Origin: a virus
DNA length: 23,510 nt
IMG/VR virus record: IMGVR_UViG_3300033145_001668
Span: 1 to 23,510 of that record
Strand: one strand, 5' to 3'
The position numbers and the translations under genes were made by a program. Shown here piece after piece: positions 6,230 to 16,718 of the stretch; the first letter of the stretch is position 1, and each line of letters starts with the position of its first letter. Under the pieces are notes generated by a model, which saw nothing but the letters and a program-made list of their open reading frames with translations, was not told where the DNA came from and did no database searches.

Positions 6230-6345
6230 AAGAGTGGAAGTGTCCTAACTGTAAAAGGGTGAGGGGGTTTGAGGGAGATTTAGTTATTAAGATTTGTTAT
6301 GTTTGCCAAGTTCCTATGAAAATTATATCAATGGAGGAGGGGTAA
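6226..6345 (+). CDS. 39-aa zinc-ribbon protein
   Basis: Two cysteine pairs, CPNC (residues 6-9) and CYVC (24-27), form a minimal zinc ribbon of the type found in phage Com-like proteins. The gene is coupled to both neighbours: ATGA overlap upstream, and its 3' end supplies the GGAGGAGGGG ribosome site for the helicase gene. Likely nucleic-acid binding; target unknown. Confidence 0.7.
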   Translation: MKEWKCPNCKRVRGFEGDLVIKICYVCQVPMKIISMEEG

Positions 6346-6351
6346 GAAAAA

Positions 6352-7920
6352 ATGGAAGAAGAGAAAGAAACAAAACTGAAAGAAGAATTAACAACAGAAG
6401 AAAGAAAACTAGAGGCAGAATGGATAATCGCACAAAGTCTTTTAAAGGAATACTCAACAAATGATTTCTCCAGAGCGTCTTACGATGAAAGGGCAAAAGA
6501 TTATTTAATTGGGCAAGATGGAAATTGTCGAATATCTTGGGAAACTTGGAAGAAATGGTACAAAGAATATGGGACAGACATAGTTTCAAAATTAAAAAAT
6601 TCTACAGAGTATAGAGATGTTGATGGTGTGATCCATCAGATAATTAAGAAAAATCCTATGGCGATTATGACAGATACAAAAGTTCAAGCGGAAATGTTTA
6701 ATGAAGTACAACCATATTTTTATGATAAATCTGGGTTGTGGTGGCTATGGAGTAATAGTGATTTCATGTGGGAACTCGTCGATGAAGTTGATATTCTTAA
6801 TATGATTTCTGAATCGACCGGAACAGATGTAATAAGACCATCTAACCGAAGTATAATCCTTAATACATTAAAACAGGAAGGTAGAAAGAATATCCCAAAA
6901 GATTCTAAACCATCATGGATACAATTTAAAGAATTGATATATGATATTGAAACTGGAGAACAATTTAAAGCATCTCCAAAATACTTTGTGACTAATCCAA
7001 TACCTTGGGAACTTGAAAAGGAAGTGTTCGCAACACCGACGATGGATAAGATATTTGCTGAATGGGTTGGAGAGGAATATGTTAAAACACTTTATGAAAT
7101 TCTTGCATATTCATTATTACCTGATTATCCAATCCATAGAATCTTTTGTTTTATTGGTGAAGGTATGAATGGTAAGAGTTGTTTTTTAAATCTCCTTATG
7201 AAGTTTGTGGGAACTAAAAATTGTTGTTCAACAGAACTAGATACATTATTAGCAAGTAGGTTTGAAGTTACAAGGCTACATAAGAAACTTATCTGTCAAA
7301 TGGGAGAAACTAATTTTAATGAAATTAGCAAGACATCCCTCCTAAAGAAATTAAGTGGAGGAGATTTGATTGGATTTGAGTACAAGAATAAAAATCCCTT
7401 TGAAGAGATTAATTATGCAAAAATAATTATAGCAACAAATAATCTTCCTGCAACCACAGATAAAACTTTGGGTTTTTATAGAAGATGGTCTATTATAGAT
7501 TTTCCAAACAGATTTTCCGAACAGAAGAATATACTTGATGATATTCCTGAAAAAGAATATAACTCCCTAGCATCAAGATGTTGTATAATATTAAAGGATT
7601 TAATAAAGAAAAGAAAATTTACAAAAGAAGGAACAGTTGAAGAACGAATGGAAAAATATGAATCAAAGAGTAATTTTCTTGAACAGTTCATTAAGGAATT
7701 TACAATTGAATCCTCAGATAACCATTTAACAAAAGCTGAATTTTATAAGAAATTTATAGCATGGTCTAAAGAAAATAGACATAGAACCATGTCAGATAGT
7801 AGTGTTGGATTAGCTATGAAGAAAATAGGGTTTGAATCTGGAAAGAAATATTTTAATTGGTTATTTGATGGTAAGGGGGGACAATTGCGTGTGTGGTTGG
7901 GATTAAAATGGAGGGAATAA
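6352..7920 (+). CDS. SF3 replicative helicase (D5/primase-C-terminal type)
   Basis: A 522-aa protein. Walker A is GEGMNGKS at residues 269-276, Walker B-like LICQMGETN at 313-321 and the SF3 motif C/sensor IIIATNNLP at about 358-366, followed by the arginine-finger-like FYRRWSIIDF. Residues about 190-265 look like the D5_N domain that precedes this ATPase, and the last 80 residues look like a winged helix. No archaeo-eukaryotic primase domain is visible in the N-terminal 190 residues, so priming would need a host enzyme or an unrecognised domain. SF3 helicases unwind viral origins as hexamers; this is the only recognisable replication enzyme here. The long hairpin starts on the base after the stop codon. 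Confidence 0.93.
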   Translation: MEEEKETKLKEELTTEERKLEAEWIIAQSLLKEYSTNDFSRASYDERAKDYLIGQDGNCRISWETWKKWYKEYGTDIVSKLKNSTEYRDVDGVIHQIIKKNPMAIMTDTKVQAEMFNEVQPYFYDKSGLWWLWSNSDFMWELVDEVDILNMISESTGTDVIRPSNRSIILNTLKQEGRKNIPKDSKPSWIQFKELIYDIETGEQFKASPKYFVTNPIPWELEKEVFATPTMDKIFAEWVGEEYVKTLYEILAYSLLPDYPIHRIFCFIGEGMNGKSCFLNLLMKFVGTKNCCSTELDTLLASRFEVTRLHKKLICQMGETNFNEISKTSLLKKLSGGDLIGFEYKNKNPFEEINYAKIIIATNNLPATTDKTLGFYRRWSIIDFPNRFSEQKNILDDIPEKEYNSLASRCCIILKDLIKKRKFTKEGTVEERMEKYESKSNFLEQFIKEFTIESSDNHLTKAEFYKKFIAWSKENRHRTMSDSSVGLAMKKIGFESGKKYFNWLFDGKGGQLRVWLGLKWRE

Positions 7921-8015
7921 GACAGAGTAGGCAGGTTAGACACCCAATTCCAGTTAGCTCTATACGCATATTACTAAGTGGGGGTTACCTGTCTAACCTG
8001 CCTACCCTGTCTTTT
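7921..8015. repeat. Long near-perfect inverted repeat (22-bp arms) downstream of the helicase
   Basis: Arms 7921-7942 and 7990-8011 pair at 21 of 22 positions (one A/C mismatch, 7926 with 8006). Inside, CCAGTTAG (7950-7957) pairs with CTAAGTGG (7974-7981) at 7 of 8. The arms are much richer in G+C than their surroundings. TTTT follows at 8012-8015, so a terminator is possible, but 22 bp is long for that; a replication origin or protein-binding cruciform is the alternative. Confidence 0.85.
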
Positions 8016-8056
8016 ATGTGTAAAATGGTATACTCTACAGGAAATGGAGGTGTCAA

Positions 8057-8203
8057 ATGACTAACAAAAAACCCTTCCAAACCAAAATAATTTGTAAAAA
8101 TTGCGGGGCAATTAATGATATATCCCAAATAAAAGAAGCAATTAAAAAAAGAATCCTTGAAAAGTTTGGTGTAGACTTGGATTGGATTTTAGAGGAAATT
8201 TAA
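8057..8203 (+). CDS. 48-aa protein with a single CxxC pair
   Basis: The ATG at 8057 follows GGAGGT (8046-8051). The protein has one CKNC motif (residues 13-16) and a C-terminal helical, basic-then-acidic part (IKKRILEKFGVDLDWILEEI). Its stop overlaps the next start (TAATG). A half zinc ribbon of this kind could dimerise around zinc. Function unknown. Confidence 0.65.
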   Translation: MTNKKPFQTKIICKNCGAINDISQIKEAIKKRILEKFGVDLDWILEEI

Positions 8204-9403: not shown

Positions 9404-9552
9404 TTTTAAACTCTTTTGGATAGAATAGGTAAAAACTATTTTATCTTATTTAGTGGCTGGGCGAGGCGGGGCGTGGCCGGGTAAGGCTGGGCATGGCGAG
9501 GCTAGGCACGGCAAGGAGTTTGGCGGAACTATAAACCGCCATTGAAAATAAA
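9404..9552 (+). promoter_or_regulatory. Intergenic region holding the pentamer array and a short hairpin
   Basis: After the RAMP-like gene comes an AT-rich stretch with a possible T-run terminator, then the GGCNN array (9455-9516). After that a hairpin GGCGG (9522-9526) / CCGCC (9536-9540) lies just before the ATG at 9553. It may be the leader of the next transcript. Confidence 0.45.
9455..9516 (+). repeat. GGCNN pentanucleotide array
   Basis: Twelve consecutive 5-base units begin with GG, eleven of them GGC (GGCTG, GGCGA, GGCGG, GGCGT, GGCCG, GGTAA, GGCTG, GGCAT, GGCGA, GGCTA, GGCAC, GGCAA), then a final GG. The first three bases are fixed while the last two vary, so it is not a simple slippage repeat. 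It is a sharply G-rich island in AT-rich DNA. A period of five rules out coding repeats. Confidence 0.9.
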
Positions 9553-9643: not shown

Positions 9644-10036
9644 ATGGATACACAAGAATTGATGAAAACTAGTATAGGGACTAAAGAAACACAAGTATTA
9701 AACCCTGCAAAAGTAAAAATTGTTAGTGTAAGATTTCAAGAAGAAACTAAAGAAGGTAAGAAAATGGATACCCCACTTGCACATTTCGAATGTAAGCATC
9801 CAGATAGAGATGATTTAATTTCTATATCTAAAGTAAAATATGAACGAAATGGTAAATTAGATGTTGTAGGATTTTGGGTACAATTAGATGAAGATAAAAA
9901 GTTTAAGAAGAGTTCAGCGATAAGTGCTTTACTTAATTATTTAGGTTGTGAGACTTTAGGAGATTCTTATGGTAAGGAGATTGATACTACAAAACAATCA
10001 GAAGATAATTCATATCTTTGTTTAAAGGCTTACTAA
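9644..10036 (+). CDS. Conserved-looking viral protein, possibly nucleic-acid binding
   Basis: A 130-aa protein starting at ATG 9644 with GGAGGT at 9628-9633; an in-frame TTG at 9623 lies before that site and is rejected. It looks beta-rich with 'KVKIVSVRFQEETKEGKKMDTPLAHFECKHPDRDDLISISKV', then 'VGFWVQLDEDKKFKKSSAISALLNYLG'. The layout (beta domain followed by a helix with a conserved S-A-LL pattern) and its place beside the RAMP-like gene suggest a DNA-replication or ssDNA-binding accessory. No family can be named with confidence. Confidence 0.7.
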   Translation: MDTQELMKTSIGTKETQVLNPAKVKIVSVRFQEETKEGKKMDTPLAHFECKHPDRDDLISISKVKYERNGKLDVVGFWVQLDEDKKFKKSSAISALLNYLGCETLGDSYGKEIDTTKQSEDNSYLCLKAY

Positions 10037-10055
10037 AAACAATTAATTTATATTC

Positions 10056-10229
10056 GATTGGTTATCTGCCAATCATTTCCTACCTAGGCGTTTTATTACT
10101 TTCGTCTATTCACCATTAAAAAATCCTCATTGGTAGGATGAGGTAATCATACTGGCATTAGCGGTTACCTTTCCGCCTCATAAAAAGTCTTATTGGTCAG
10201 GATAAGCAAGGGGGCACTTCGGTGTCCTC
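10056..10229 (+). ncRNA. Structured RNA with mutually exclusive stems
   Basis: Stems seen: GATTGG/CCAATC (10056-10061 with 10069-10074); CTCAT-TGGTAGG-ATGAG (10126-10142); GCGG/CCGC (10161-10164 with 10173-10176); CTTAT-TGGTCAGG-ATAAG (10189-10206); and GGGCAC-TTCG-GTGTCC (10212-10227). ATGAGG (10138-10143) can pair either with CCTCAT upstream (10125-10130) or CCTCAT downstream (10176-10181). A TATA-like AATTTATATT (about 10042-10051) precedes it and TTTT follows. It may be the leader of the gene at 10243 or a free RNA. Confidence 0.6.
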
Positions 10230-10242
10230 TTTTATAATCACA

Positions 10243-10425
10243 ATGAATTGCGAAAATAAAGAATGTAATAAGAAAACAAAGAATCTTTTCCTTTCAAATA
10301 ATCCTAGATATAAAATATGGATTTGTAGGGAATGTAAGTTAAAAGAAGAGAGATTAGAAAAAGAACAAACTAAGACTAATGTAATCTTTCACGATTCGGC
10401 TAATGTCTATGAGGCGCAACAGTAG
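10243..10425 (+). CDS. 60-aa zinc-ribbon-like protein
   Basis: The ATG at 10243 gives a protein with CENKEC (residues 3-8) and CREC (about 32-35), a probable zinc site, followed by a charged helical region (KLKEERLEKEQTK). An extension back to 10222 would lie in the TTCG hairpin. It is flanked on both sides by structured RNA, so it may be regulated by the upstream element. Function unknown. Confidence 0.65.
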   Translation: MNCENKECNKKTKNLFLSNNPRYKIWICRECKLKEERLEKEQTKTNVIFHDSANVYEAQQ

Positions 10426-10429
10426 TCGT

Positions 10430-10710
10430 AAAAAGACTGCCGTGTGCATTGGGAGAAAGGTAGATAAGTTGTATTCTACGCGAAGGCCCAAAACAACTGG
10501 CACCGGGAAAGACTGGAATGTGGGTGAAAAGTGAGGGAGTAGGGCAGGGGAGGATAACGAACCTACCGAAACCAAAAAACCTCGGTAACCCACATTTATA
10601 CTCATTAAGTCAGGGGCAAGAGAGAGGATTCGGCTCTCGAGGGCTCTACCGATAGATGAGAATGTGGGTGCCTTGTACAGGTGATATTTTGGGAAACCAA
10701 GCCCACATTT
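10430..10710 (+). ncRNA. Structured RNA or origin-like region with duplicated stems
   Basis: Stems in order: TTGGG/CCCAA enclosing GTAGA/TCTAC (about 10449-10493); AATGTGGGT (10517-10525) with ACCCACATT (10588-10596), enclosing TACCGA/TCGGTA (10564-10569 with 10582-10587); CTCAT/ATGAG (10601-10605 with 10656-10660), enclosing GAGAG/CTCTC (10622-10638); AATGTGGG plus CTTG (10661-10668, 10672-10675) with CAAG plus CCCACATT (10698-10709). The last stem is followed by TTTATAATC. There is no convincing ORF, and base composition is far more G-rich than in the genes. Resemblance to RNase P conserved segments is slight. Confidence 0.62.
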
Positions 10711-10728
10711 TATAATCATGGAAATAAA

Positions 10729-10950
10729 ATGAAATTGTTAAATCCAAAAACAATAGAAGAAGCAATACAGAATTTGCAACAATTTTTAGAGTGTGATTTA
10801 TACTCAAAATTCAGACCAAAAGAAGAGATTAATGGAAAGATGTTTGTTAGAGTAGACCCATTTAAAGATGAGAATGACTTTCATAAATATATAGAAGGAC
10901 ATTTTGAAATTTTAAGAAAAGAAATAAAAGAGGTTTTGTCTAAGAACTAA
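10729..10950 (+). CDS. 73-aa protein of unknown function
   Basis: Starts at ATG 10729, just after the structured region; an extension to 10681 would run through a stem. Helical and charged (IEEAIQNLQQFLECDL ... FHKYIEGHFEILRKEIKEVL). No family recognised. It is followed one base later by the next gene, so the two are probably co-transcribed. The coding assignment rests on composition and spacing. Confidence 0.65.
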   Translation: MKLLNPKTIEEAIQNLQQFLECDLYSKFRPKEEINGKMFVRVDPFKDENDFHKYIEGHFEILRKEIKEVLSKN

Positions 10951-11220: not shown

Positions 11221-11412
11221 ATGGATAACACAAAGATAATAACCAACGCAATAAAAAAAGAAGAAAACGGATTAAGCATTACTGAATTAGTAAATAAAAC
11301 TCCTTTATCTAGAGGACAAATAAGAACCGCTCTTGCTTTTTTATTAGGTGCAGGATTTATTATTGAAAAACAAGCTGGAATGACTAAATTATATTTTATT
11401 AAAGGAAAATGA
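11221..11412 (+). CDS. Winged helix-turn-helix regulator
   Basis: A 63-aa protein starting at ATG 11221 (leaderless; the frame back to 11155 overlaps the previous gene and is rejected). It has the helix-turn-helix pattern 'GLSITELVNKTPLSRGQIRTALAFLLGAGFI' followed by a wing 'EKQAGMTKLYFIKGK', the layout of small MarR/ArsR-like archaeal DNA-binding domains. It fills the whole protein, so it probably acts as a dimeric repressor. It could be the factor that reads the GTTAAT boxes or the GTAACA palindromes elsewhere; that is a guess. Confidence 0.75.
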   Translation: MDNTKIITNAIKKEENGLSITELVNKTPLSRGQIRTALAFLLGAGFIIEKQAGMTKLYFIKGK

Positions 11413-11427
11413 AAACTAAAAATTAAA

Positions 11428-12066
11428 ATGGTACACATAACAAAAAAAGATTTAGACAAAAATAATTACTATAAGAAAGATGGTATAGACACAGATGAAG
11501 AAATTACTTGTGATGAAAATTTAGGTTATATTAGATTTAAAAAATCAGTAATTACAACAAAATCATTAATCTTAGGTTTAGGTTGTGGGATTGAAGCTGG
11601 TTATGGAATTAAAGCGGGTTATGGAATTGAAGCTGGTTATGGAATTGAAGCTGGTTATGGAATTGAAGCTGGTTATGGAATTAAAGCTGGTTGGGGAATT
11701 AAAGCTGGTTATGGAATTGAAGCTGGTTATGGAATTGAAGCTGGTTATGGAATTGAAGCTGGTGAGGGAATTAAAGCTGGTGAGGGAATTAAAGCTGGTG
11801 AGGGAATTAAAGCTGGTTTATCAATAATTTGTAAAGGAATTTTAAAATTCTCATATCAATTATTTGCAGGGACTTGCATATGGAGAAAAACAACGGAAGA
11901 AGATTTAATTGTTGAATGTGGAAAGTTGGAAGCAAACGGAAAAATAGTTTTAGGTAATCTCAAGGAAACTGGCAATATCCCTGAAGAGATTGAAAAGATT
12001 AAAATTATTGATGGTAAAAAATATAAATTAGTTGAAGATGTGAATGTATCAGGAGATGAACAATGA
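11428..12066 (+). CDS. GIxAG hexapeptide-repeat beta-solenoid protein
   Basis: A 212-aa protein. Residues 54-131 are thirteen tandem six-residue units of the form G-I-E/K-A-G-Y/W/E/L. Such regular six-residue periods predict a left-handed beta-helix or similar solenoid with charged E/K faces. Before the repeats is a region with 'NLGYIRFKKSVITTKSLILG'; after them comes 'SIICKGILKFSYQLFAGTCIWRK', then a polar tail. I recall the same architecture, with the same GIxAG units and the 'FAG...' and 'CGKLE' tail, in proteins of gut bacteria and their phages, function unknown. Here it sits in an accessory operon and couples by ATGA to the next ORF. E and K units are clustered: the last three are all K with E at position six. 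Confidence 0.85.
   Translation: MVHITKKDLDKNNYYKKDGIDTDEEITCDENLGYIRFKKSVITTKSLILGLGCGIEAGYGIKAGYGIEAGYGIEAGYGIEAGYGIKAGWGIKAGYGIEAGYGIEAGYGIEAGEGIKAGEGIKAGEGIKAGLSIICKGILKFSYQLFAGTCIWRKTTEEDLIVECGKLEANGKIVLGNLKETGNIPEEIEKIKIIDGKKYKLVEDVNVSGDEQ
11587..11820 (+). repeat. Thirteen tandem 18-bp coding repeats
   Basis: Each unit is a variant of GGAATTGAAGCTGGTTAT, in frame with the hexapeptide protein. Units differ mainly at gaa/aaa (E/K) and at the last codon. Near identity at DNA level suggests recent expansion or gene conversion, so the copy number may vary or be mis-assembled. Confidence 0.95.
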
Positions 12067-12362
12067 AAACTTTAAGCGATAAAATAGTTATAGGATTTAT
12101 TCCCGAAGATAATCAATTAGAACATAGTAATTTTATTTGGAGAAAAGATGTTAAAAAATTTATCCATCAGTTGGAAAAAAGAGATAAACTTCTGATTGAA
12201 TGAGTATCTGAATTTAATGAGACGGTTAAATTAAGGGAATTACTAAAGATGTATAAAAAAGGCGAATTAAAAACATTCGTAGATGAAAAAAAAGTTCCAA
12301 CAATTAAAGAATTAGCAGGAGATAAATTAATTGATGTAAATGTTGGGAAGGGTGTCGCATGA
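12063..12362 (+). pseudogene. 99-codon ORF interrupted by one in-frame TGA
   Basis: From ATG 12063 the frame encodes 46 residues ending KLLIE, meets TGA at 12201-12203, then stays open for 52 more codons (VSEFNETVKLRELLKMYKKG...) to a TGA at 12360-12362. Both ends show the ATGA coupling typical of this operon, which argues that the whole 300 bases was, or is, one gene. Trp at the stop (TGG to TGA, giving IEWVSEF) would be a one-base change. Alternatives are a nonsense mutation, a sequence error, stop readthrough, or two genes with a restart at ATG 12249. No domain recognised. Confidence 0.6.
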
Positions 12363-12565
12363 AAGTTTGGGATATAATAATTTCAGGACATAATGGAACA
12401 AAATATCATAAAGGTATTCTTTTAGAGGATTTTCAAGATTTTATCACTCAATTAAAAGCTCAAGCATTTTCAGATAAAGGATTAGAGATGGGATTTATAA
12501 AACTTGTAAATAAATTAGGTGGTGACGCCATTCATGCAGTAAGGGAAACAGAGGATAAGAAATGA
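12359..12565 (+). CDS. 68-aa protein of unknown function
   Basis: Starts by ATGA overlap with the split ORF and ends by ATGA overlap with the next gene. The sequence (MKVWDIIISGHNGTKYHKGILLEDFQDFITQLKAQAF...) looks like a small alpha/beta protein with a beta-hairpin start. No family recognised. Confidence 0.68.
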   Translation: MKVWDIIISGHNGTKYHKGILLEDFQDFITQLKAQAFSDKGLEMGFIKLVNKLGGDAIHAVRETEDKK

Positions 12566-12786
12566 AATCAATAATATGTCCATATTTTGAGAAATGTAAT
12601 GTAGCAAAAATATCTGGAAGAGATTGTGTAAGAGATTATCAAACAACTTGTCAAACATATAAATTCTATAAAAGATATCCCGAGCATTTAGGAATTGGTG
12701 CAATGGTTGATGTTAGTAGGTTAGAAAAGATTACACAAAAGAACCATAATAGGTATTTGGGAAAAGTGGTCAGCGAGGGTGAGTAA
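12562..12786 (+). CDS. 74-aa cysteine-rich protein
   Basis: Four cysteines occur early: CPYFEKC (residues 6-12), then single cysteines in RDCVRD and TTCQTY, followed by a basic aromatic KFYKRY. The spacing is compatible with a zinc or Fe-S site. The remainder (GIGAMVDVSRLEKI) is short. Small archaeal proteins with this C-x5-C start exist, but no function is assigned. Confidence 0.68.
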   Translation: MKSIICPYFEKCNVAKISGRDCVRDYQTTCQTYKFYKRYPEHLGIGAMVDVSRLEKITQKNHNRYLGKVVSEGE

Positions 12787-12883
12787 AAAATAATAAGTTT
12801 CACAAAAACTACAAAAACTAGTGTTTTTTAAGGTATTATAAACAAATAGTAAACTATATAAAGGAACTTTTATTATAATAACT
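12787..12883 (+). promoter_or_regulatory. parB promoter and upstream palindrome
   Basis: AAAAAC (12813-12818) and GTTTTT (12823-12828) form an inverted repeat round TAGT, followed by T; this could be a terminator for the upstream operon or an operator. AAACTATATAAAGG (12851-12864) is a strong TATA element centred about 26 bases before ATG 12884, so parB is read leaderless. The same AAACTATATAAA is used at 15338-15348. Confidence 0.6.
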
Positions 12884-13795
12884 ATGGAACTCAAAGAAAT
12901 AGAATTAAAAAATATTAAACCAAATCTTTCCCAGCCACGAGAACACTTTGATAAACAAAAAGTTAAAGAACTTGCAGAAAGTATTCTTTCTAATGGATTA
13001 ATTAATCCAATTTCTGTAAGAGAAGAAAAAGGAAAATATATTATTGTTGCAGGTGAAAGAAGATTTCAAGCACACAAGATGTCAGGTATTAAAAAGATTC
13101 CAGCATTTGTAAGAACTTATAAAAATGAAGCTGATTGGATGGTTGAAAGTTTTGTAGAGAATGTCCATAGAGAAGATATTACTCCGACGGAGAAAGGAAA
13201 GTATTTGAAAAAGATTATGGAGTTGGAAGGAATTGAAACAATAAAGGTCTTAGCAAAAAAAGTTAATTCAGAACCAACTAATGTATCTAATTGGATAGAT
13301 GATTATCAATTTCGTCAAAAGACGCGTCTTTTAGAAAATACAGACCATACCATGATTCGTTCTACTAAGGGACTTAAAGATAAAGAAAGAAAGAAATTAA
13401 TTAATTGGGCAGAGGAACATGATGTTTCTGCTAGAAAGATGGATGAAGTAATTGTTCCAGCATACAAACAAGCAGATGAAGGATCTAAGGAAGCATTACT
13501 TTCTGAATATGAAAGAGTTGAGGAAGACCCAGAACCAATAGTATATGAAAGAACTGCAAACGATGTTGTCGATGATATACTTTCTAATCTACATGACTTT
13601 AAGCATAATGTCGACGAGCTTTTAAAAGATATGAATGTTCAAGATATATCAAAATCAAAAGCCAATAAAGCAATTACAACAGCAGGATTACACTTGAAAG
13701 AACCATTAAGGAATTTTGTTAATACTCTAAGACAGAGAGGTGCGATCCCAGATAAACTTATACTGGCGTTGATAAAGGCTAATGCAAAGAATTAA
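12884..13795 (+). CDS. parB: ParB-family DNA-binding protein
   Basis: A 303-aa protein with the ParB/sulfiredoxin-like N-terminal domain: IKPNLSQPRE (residues 11-20), LAESILSNGLINPISVR, the signature GERRFQAH (57-64) and ENVHREDITPTEKG (92-105). A helix-turn-helix of the KorB/ParB type follows (VLAKKVNSEPTNVSNWIDDYQ). The C-terminal 100 residues are helical and may dimerise. In plasmids and viruses such proteins partition DNA or regulate transcription; recent work on the family shows CTP-dependent clamping. No ParA ATPase is found in the circle, so it may act alone, use a host ATPase, or be a regulator. Leaderless start; overlaps the next gene by 14 bases. Confidence 0.9.
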   Translation: MELKEIELKNIKPNLSQPREHFDKQKVKELAESILSNGLINPISVREEKGKYIIVAGERRFQAHKMSGIKKIPAFVRTYKNEADWMVESFVENVHREDITPTEKGKYLKKIMELEGIETIKVLAKKVNSEPTNVSNWIDDYQFRQKTRLLENTDHTMIRSTKGLKDKERKKLINWAEEHDVSARKMDEVIVPAYKQADEGSKEALLSEYERVEEDPEPIVYERTANDVVDDILSNLHDFKHNVDELLKDMNVQDISKSKANKAITTAGLHLKEPLRNFVNTLRQRGAIPDKLILALIKANAKN

Positions 13796-16206: not shown

Positions 16207-16515
16207 ATGTGGCCAGAAATAATAGTTGTAATTGTTGTCTGTGTTACTATTGCATTCTTTATTGTTAGGTGGTTAGATAATAAAAGTTTGAAAAAGTTGA
16301 AAAGGGGGTATGATAAGAAAGATGACCCCGGAAGAGAAATCGAAACCACAAAAGGAATGGGATACAGAGGAAGTGAAAAAGATAGTTCAAGAAAATCAAA
16401 GTTACAAGATGCTCTTAAGCATGCAAAACGAGAGTTATTATCGAACGGAGATAGTGGAGAACCTGATAGTTCTATCAAATCAATTGGCGAAACTAACCTC
16501 AACCATAGATACTAG
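16207..16515 (+). CDS. Single-span membrane protein with charged tail
   Basis: A 102-aa protein starting at ATG 16207; the frame back to 16156 overlaps the preceding gene. Residues 3-22 are a strong transmembrane helix (EIIVVIVVCVTIAFFIVRWL), followed by a long basic and Ser/Asp-rich cytoplasmic tail. The last two thirds overlap a second ORF (16310) in another frame. The third-base composition in the overlap stays AT-rich in this frame, which supports it. Confidence 0.65.
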   Translation: MWPEIIVVIVVCVTIAFFIVRWLDNKSLKKLKRGYDKKDDPGREIETTKGMGYRGSEKDSSRKSKLQDALKHAKRELLSNGDSGEPDSSIKSIGETNLNHRY

Positions 16516-16555
16516 ATTAGAAGATCTTAATAAGATTCTAATTAGTAAGAAGTAA
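16310..16555 (+). CDS. Coiled-coil protein overlapping the preceding gene out of frame
   Basis: An 81-aa protein with a charged N-terminal half (EEKSKPQKEWDTEEVKKIVQEN) and a C-terminal heptad pattern (IVENLIVLSNQLAKLTSTIDTRLEDLNKILI) typical of a coiled coil. The 206-base overlap with the upstream gene is large. It continues 40 bases beyond it with protein-like sequence, so it is probably real. The GGGGG at 16304-16308 is very close to the first ATG; ATG 16322 is another possible start. Confidence 0.6.
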   Translation: MIRKMTPEEKSKPQKEWDTEEVKKIVQENQSYKMLLSMQNESYYRTEIVENLIVLSNQLAKLTSTIDTRLEDLNKILISKK

Positions 16556-16593
16556 TTATATTAAATACTTTAATTTTTATTTATTATGTTTAA

Positions 16594-16682
16594 GGTCGGG
16601 AGTGTCAATTAAGTTTTCTCCAGACCATATATTAGAATGCTGCTGGATGCTCGCAAGTTTACCCCCGCAGGATTTATCATTC
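16594..16682 (+). ncRNA. Two hairpins in the convergent intergenic region
   Basis: Hairpin one: GGTC and GGAG (from 16594) pair with CTCC and GACC (to 16626). Hairpin two: GAATGCTGC (16635-16643) pairs with GCAG (16667-16670) and CATTC (16678-16682). Two genes converge here, so they may be terminators, but the stems contain more G+C than needed and lack clear T-runs. A small RNA on either strand is possible. Confidence 0.45.
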
Positions 16683-16687
16683 CAATT

Positions 16688-16718
16688 CTATATGAAATCT
16701 ATTTCTAAATTCATATAG
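16688..16718. terminator. 9-bp inverted repeat at the end of the coat-like gene
   Basis: CTATATGAA (16688-16696) and TTCATATAG (16710-16718) are perfectly complementary around a 13-base loop. The minus-strand stop codon lies within it, so it probably ends or stabilises that abundant message. Confidence 0.5.

Follow-up and report, generated by a model that had tools for sequence, protein, structure and literature searches.

A structured RNA element next to start codons in a likely DPANN virus and its relatives

Genes and features around the element

The stretch of DNA analysed here, called the window, is the 23,510-nt IMG/VR virus record IMGVR_UViG_3300033145_001668 (positions 1 to 23,510), which looks complete and circular, with a 114-base direct terminal repeat and a GC content of 32%. 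Its genes include a D5/DUF5906 helicase-primase gene (6352-7920), a ParB-domain protein gene (12884) and an integrase gene (14415). Relatives of the helicase at 50-71% identity were found in IMG/VR contigs and in contigs of Pacearchaeota and Woesearchaeota MAGs, and a few in MAGs assigned to Spirochaetia, Zambryskibacteria or Nanohaloarchaea, of which some were possibly mis-binned. On the strength of these relatives, the host of the window virus is likely a DPANN archaeon. A long inverted repeat, often made up of short tandem repeats, was found immediately 3' of the helicase gene in 10 of 11 viruses including the window, the exception being L002 at the threshold used; the window copy (7919-8013) is the best candidate for the replication origin in this genome. 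A conserved CTCYACAGGAAAYGGAGGTGT-like hairpin (8029-8058) comes after the putative origin, occurs in either orientation, and is also present in L002, L007, L008 and L080.

A VIPR system was identified nearby. The product of 8858-9403 matches PDB 36pp_D, 'SUSP1 Vipr protein' (E 4.7e-10), and the vrRNA of the system (PMC13142463) lies at 9455-9541, comprising 12 GGY-NN units and the tail hairpin TGGCGG-aactataaa-CCGCCA, which at the same place in L079 reads TGGCAG/CTGCCA, a compensatory change. In L079, a Woesearchaeota MAG contig, several GGY-NN vrRNA-like arrays with a hairpin plus TTCATACTCA between them were also observed at 6263-6690, beside a Vipr homologue.

The gene 5' of the structured region (9644..10036, + strand) was termed SSB-like by its position. 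Its product gave a poor structure model (mean pLDDT 52) and a protein search found no relative of it among viral contigs; the protein encoded at the same position in relatives is modelled with an OB-fold topology. The gene 5' of the element belongs to one small protein family in at least 11 relatives, and is SSB-like in L147, L150, L151, L155, L157, L160, L163, L166, L168, L169 and L171. In the model of this upstream gene (pLDDT 78) the topology is beta1-2-3-alpha-beta4-5, and Foldseek gave weak matches, mostly to proteins with an OB-fold (for example cold-shock proteins and RecO), so that the label is a reasonable one for the predicted proteins of the relatives. In L075, a helicase relative, a tRNA array (12119-13071; six tRNAs by ARAGORN, seven by Rfam) was observed 3' of the SSB-like gene, at the site corresponding to the element.

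Downstream of the SSB-like gene the window has a multi-hairpin leader (10037..10239, +), identified by sequence, whose hairpin with TTTATAMTCA recurs in L004, L007, L008, L009 and L079. The last hairpin of this leader, GGGGGCAC-TTCG-GTGTCCTC, is followed by TTTTATAATCA and then by a small Zn-ribbon-like ORF with a paired-cysteine pattern (10240..10425, +), which separates this leader from a second one, the region under study. Another small ORF (10729..10950, +) lies 3' of that region and had no homologue in the loci searched.

Modules and fold of the region

Four repeat segments had been placed at 10517, 10588, 10661 and 10702, and all were confirmed there: AATGTGGGT at 10517-10525 and again at 10661-10669, ACCCACATT at 10588-10596 and CCCACATT at 10702-10709, so that AATGTGGG is found at 10517 and 10661, with the complementary sequence at 10588 and 10702. 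When the whole window was scanned for 8-mers that have two copies, and two copies of their complement, within 250 nt, AATGTGGG alone qualified; among 60 first-order Markov genomes some such quartet arose in 12, and one with at least four G/C in none. The region has a GC content of 46% (genome 32%), 62% purines and 87 G against 54 C, so the G-richness given as its hallmark is real, but purine richness is common to much of the coding strand. No sense ORF in it reaches 60 aa.

For the + strand of 10400-10720 the folding energy is -102 kcal/mol, while shuffled sequences give -83.8 +/- 5.0 (z -3.6; none of 100 shuffles was as low); the minus strand has a z of -2.6. It had been remarked that the four segments could pair as two neighbours or cross over into another global fold, and since both folds came to exactly -102.0 kcal/mol when imposed as constraints, the remark is literally correct. 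Comparison of relatives nevertheless favours local pairing, because a single ATGTGGG...CCCACAT unit is the usual state among them and the tandem duplication is shared by L163.

From its 5' end, the region comprises a degenerate tRNA-like module (10413..10447, +), a second stem TTGGG...CCCAA that folds locally (10449..10491, +), the hairpin CCGG-GAAAGA-CTGG (10503..10516, +), whose stem covaries in 19 sequences, and two related units. The tRNA-like module forms a hairpin in the MFE fold and carries CTGCCGTGTGCATTGGG, common to L146 and L157; its 3' half, CTGCCGTGTGC, matches the T-arm and acceptor of the relatives, and its 5' acceptor strand pairs only in part. As read from the sequence, the module is evidently decayed: CTGCCGTGTGCATTGGG survives, and the full 5' acceptor strand and the T-loop, hence the 7-bp acceptor and TTCRANT T-loop that define the module elsewhere, do not. 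Stems beginning with TTGG(G) were also read by eye 3' of the tRNA-like module in several relatives.

The 3' part of the region was searched with a covariance model, R2, trained on 15 relatives with the window left out. It matched the window twice, with E-values that are rough: unit 1 (10495..10610, +; 50.8 bits, E 1.1e-8) consists of the GAAAGA hairpin and AATGTGGGT ... ACCCACATT followed by TTTATACTCA, and unit 2 (10638..10724, +; 44.6 bits, E 2.8e-7) of a degenerate hairpin and AATGTGGG ... CCCACATT followed by TTTATAATC-ATGG. The window thus carries the 3' module of the family (GAAAGA hairpin, ATGTGGG...CCCACAT and TTTATAATC-ATGG), and since a model built without it finds two copies, its duplicated stems are to be read as one module present twice in tandem, as in L163. 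The last unit ends in a boundary or start motif recognised by sequence, TTTTATAATC plus ATGGAA (10708..10732, +), which adjoins start codons in about 20 further contigs; in the window the ATG after TTTTATAATC begins an ORF of four codons, and the TGA of this ORF overlaps the ATG that follows (10729).

A family of elements in related viruses

Sequence searches with the window region against phages and 371 related archaeal genomes gave nothing useful, the DNA matches in the archaeal genomes being short and mostly AT-rich. The intergenic regions of the helicase relatives repeatedly contain a hairpin with TTTATA(A/C)TCA directly 3' of it; the pattern AATGTGGGTGAAAAG was discarded, as its 62 matching contigs were estimated by us to be about the chance level. 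The pattern CYCACATTTTATAMTCATGG was suggested by window 10695-10723, which matches L007 over 29 nt; it hits 19 viral contigs, where chance alone would by our estimate yield about one or fewer. A second pattern, GGAAAGACNRGRATGTGGG, drawn from the common upstream hairpin of those contigs, matched 22 stretches, 8 of them new. R2 also matches L007 and L076, and had no match in two host MAGs (about 253 kb searched, less any overlap of viral contigs). Two large, similarly placed structured stretches, L007 13262-13425 and L008 8555-8700, were set aside, having no R2 match. Among the 371 genomes of the related archaeal phylum the element was found on a single 5.9-kb contig, where two tandem tRNA-like folds precede it. 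By shared sequence and predicted structure, the window element is a member of an RNA family present in about 20 other virus genomes, a count that overstates independence because L145/L149/L156 and L167/L169/L170 are near-duplicates. A literature search of open PMC papers found no description of such an element, and the family is accordingly taken as previously undescribed.

The domains outside the modelled module were assigned by eye. The 5' part of the element often starts with a hairpin with TTYATAMTCA and continues with the tRNA-like fold, a TTGG-initiated stem and TGACA; the 3' part comprises the GAAAGA-loop hairpin, ATGTGGG, a hypervariable interior of about 20-80 nt, CCCACAT, TTTATAATC and ATGG. 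The element usually lies 3' of the viral OB-fold (SSB-like) gene and, in all cases read, follows the coding strand. Most relatives have one ATGTGGG...CCCACAT unit, and in L166 and L168 the part with the tRNA-like fold and GAAAGA hairpin is itself repeated.

In the GAAAGA stem, 14 double-changed cells were counted over 19 sequences, a number reached by none of 500 shuffles. In nearly all 19 rows the ATGTGGG/CCCACAT stem is preserved notwithstanding its hypervariable interior; because 6 of its 8 pairs never vary, the case for pairing comes from complementarity and conservation and not from covariation, and this invariance suggests that the stem may be recognised by sequence as well as by pairing. 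A MAFFT alignment of the tRNA-like modules including the window was rejected as unreliable, with mis-cut rows, and acceptor pairs were therefore counted by script. In the relatives this module has a conserved T-arm, a TTCRANT T-loop and a covarying 7-bp acceptor (GCGAGAG/CTCTCGC, GCGCCCG/CGGGCGC, GCACACG/CGTGTGC, GCGGTCA/TGACCGC and GACCCCT/AGGGGTC). The covariation of the hairpin and the tRNA-like acceptor in the family, together with the two units found by the leave-out model, supports the proposal of a viral ncRNA as far as a structured RNA element is concerned.

Comparison with known RNAs was then made. No Rfam 15 family matched the window above its gathering cut-off, the best chance matches in 10030-10760 having E 2.7-9.5, and RNase P, for which a check had been advised, gave no match even at E up to 10. 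Like tRNA (RF00005) and viral tRNA-like structures, the family has a 7-bp acceptor and a conserved T-arm TTCGAAT, and in one relative, L075, the site adjoins genuine tRNA genes; unlike tRNA, its anticodon arm is absent or irregular, with loops of 4 to about 15 nt (by eye), and it scores around or below the Rfam tRNA cut-off of 29 (26.5 bits in L157, 30.7 bits in L172), while the degenerate window copy, its T-loop lost, has no Rfam tRNA match. ARAGORN found no tRNA genes in the window and the relatives scanned except the true tRNAs of L075, and no tmRNA (tRNA-like ends plus tag ORF). The family resembles tmRNA in joining a tRNA-like fold to other structured domains, but its element has no tag reading frame and is not permuted. 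GOLLD and ROOL are ornate phage RNAs near tRNA arrays, and the family is likewise a large structured viral RNA near tRNAs; in contrast to them, the window region has no Rfam match. In the dicistrovirus-type intergenic IRES, a tRNA-like fold and stems stand directly 5' of a start codon between two genes, as the tRNA-like element and stems do here, although the viruses are unrelated. The VIPR vrRNA (PMC13142463) is also a virus-encoded structured RNA in the intergenic space of the same genome, and in L079 the hairpin plus TTCATACTCA divides vrRNA-like units; however, 10430-10710 is without GGY/NN tandem repeats, the only such array in the window being 9455-9514.

Proposed role and alternative explanations

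A conserved RNA fold, oriented with the coding strand, lies between the SSB-like gene and the small downstream genes. TTTATAATC runs directly into ATGG, at which a small gene usually starts: 34 of 176 copies lie on an ATG-initiated ORF, compared with 5-11 of 79-141 for control motifs, and in L163 it is found at four successive gene starts. In L079 a variant hairpin plus TTCATACTCA stands between consecutive vrRNA-like units. As the motif both abuts ATGs and divides these units, the simplest common role would be that of an RNA-unit boundary that also sets the next start. With moderate confidence we infer that the region is a structured RNA leader or array on a viral transcript, which is processed, sets translation starts, or both. 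The element would act as RNA in cis, its tRNA-like module and stems marking borders between RNA units at which tRNA-processing enzymes or other nucleases may cut the polycistronic transcript; RNase P and tRNase Z would be expected to act readily on tRNA-like folds ('tRNA punctuation'). The 3' end of the last stem (AUGUGGG/CCCACAU) leads through UUUAUAAUC to the AUGG of the next gene, and stem and UUUAUAAUC together could present the start codon of a gene without a Shine-Dalgarno sequence. The ATGTGGG stem is not always needed, since L145 and L157 carry a further CCCACATTTTATAATCATGG that has no ATGTGGG close by.

Several other readings were weighed against this processed or start-setting leader. 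Tandem intrinsic-type terminators, in which GC hairpins and a short U-run stop operon transcription and the next genes are merely close, would account for the TTT(T)ATA that stands immediately 3' of GC hairpins in several viruses; we consider them unlikely, as conservation runs past the U-run (ATAATC-ATGG) and into the tRNA-like and GAAAGA modules, TTTATAATC-ATGG also occurs at gene starts without a hairpin, and the convergent gene end at 16515-16711 has T-rich stretches but not this motif. The exactly equal energies of the local and crossed folds, and the single ATGTGGG with two CCCACAT-start sites (at a spacing of 217 and 179 nt) in L145 and L157, would suit a riboswitch-like translation switch, in which AUGUGGG pairs with either CCCACAU and the two folds expose different start sites. 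Such a switch is improbable: the interiors vary and reveal no conserved ligand pocket, and it cannot be the general function because most relatives have just one unit. Equally doubtful is an archaeal-virus counterpart of the intergenic IRES or of a start-site switch, in which the tRNA-like fold would dock on the ribosome and AUGUGGG would compete for several CCCACAUUUUAUAAUC-AUGG starts; if true, it would coordinate translation across a string of small viral genes lacking Shine-Dalgarno sequences.

The original prediction had also offered a replication origin with inverted iterons, and four inverted or direct copies of an 8-9-mer are indeed present. This reading is now very improbable: the AATGTGGG element is intergenic, strand-oriented on the coding strand and adjoins start codons, its family has tRNA-like folds and a covarying hairpin, and cumulative GC skew has no turn at the region. 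Conserved repeats beside the replication gene, as in iteron origins, are found instead at 7919-8013, directly 3' of the helicase gene and the better candidate, and in nine relatives. Coding on the opposite strand, by a functional or decayed gene, has scarcely any likelihood in our view; an antisense frame is open over 10357-10719 (121 codons, a length matched in 4 of 300 shuffles), but it has no PHROGs match, the corresponding frame is uninterrupted in only 3 of the 12 relatives read and broken in the rest, and RNA-structure conservation explains the constraint.

The family adds an undescribed structured RNA with tRNA-like folds to DPANN-linked viruses, a group with hardly any molecular biology, and the position of the element at start codons without Shine-Dalgarno sequences makes it testable whether a tRNA-like RNA cuts archaeal-virus transcripts or starts translation. 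Two further ideas about TTTATAMTCA were discarded. An IS200/IS605 or TnpB-RNA origin, suggested by the hairpin with this motif, was dropped as the window has no TnpB; a TnpB-type match was found in one of ten related records (L003), which has no hairpin with TTTATAMTCA in the part read. A TATA box was rejected because the motif touches the ATG, while the promoter-like TTTATATA sits about 28 nt upstream of the ATG at 11221. Short-period tandem repeats were also observed in ORFs and gaps close to the same gene block (window 11585-11800, L007 13850-14045 and L080 12876-12942); in L155 and L157 they lie 5' of the element.
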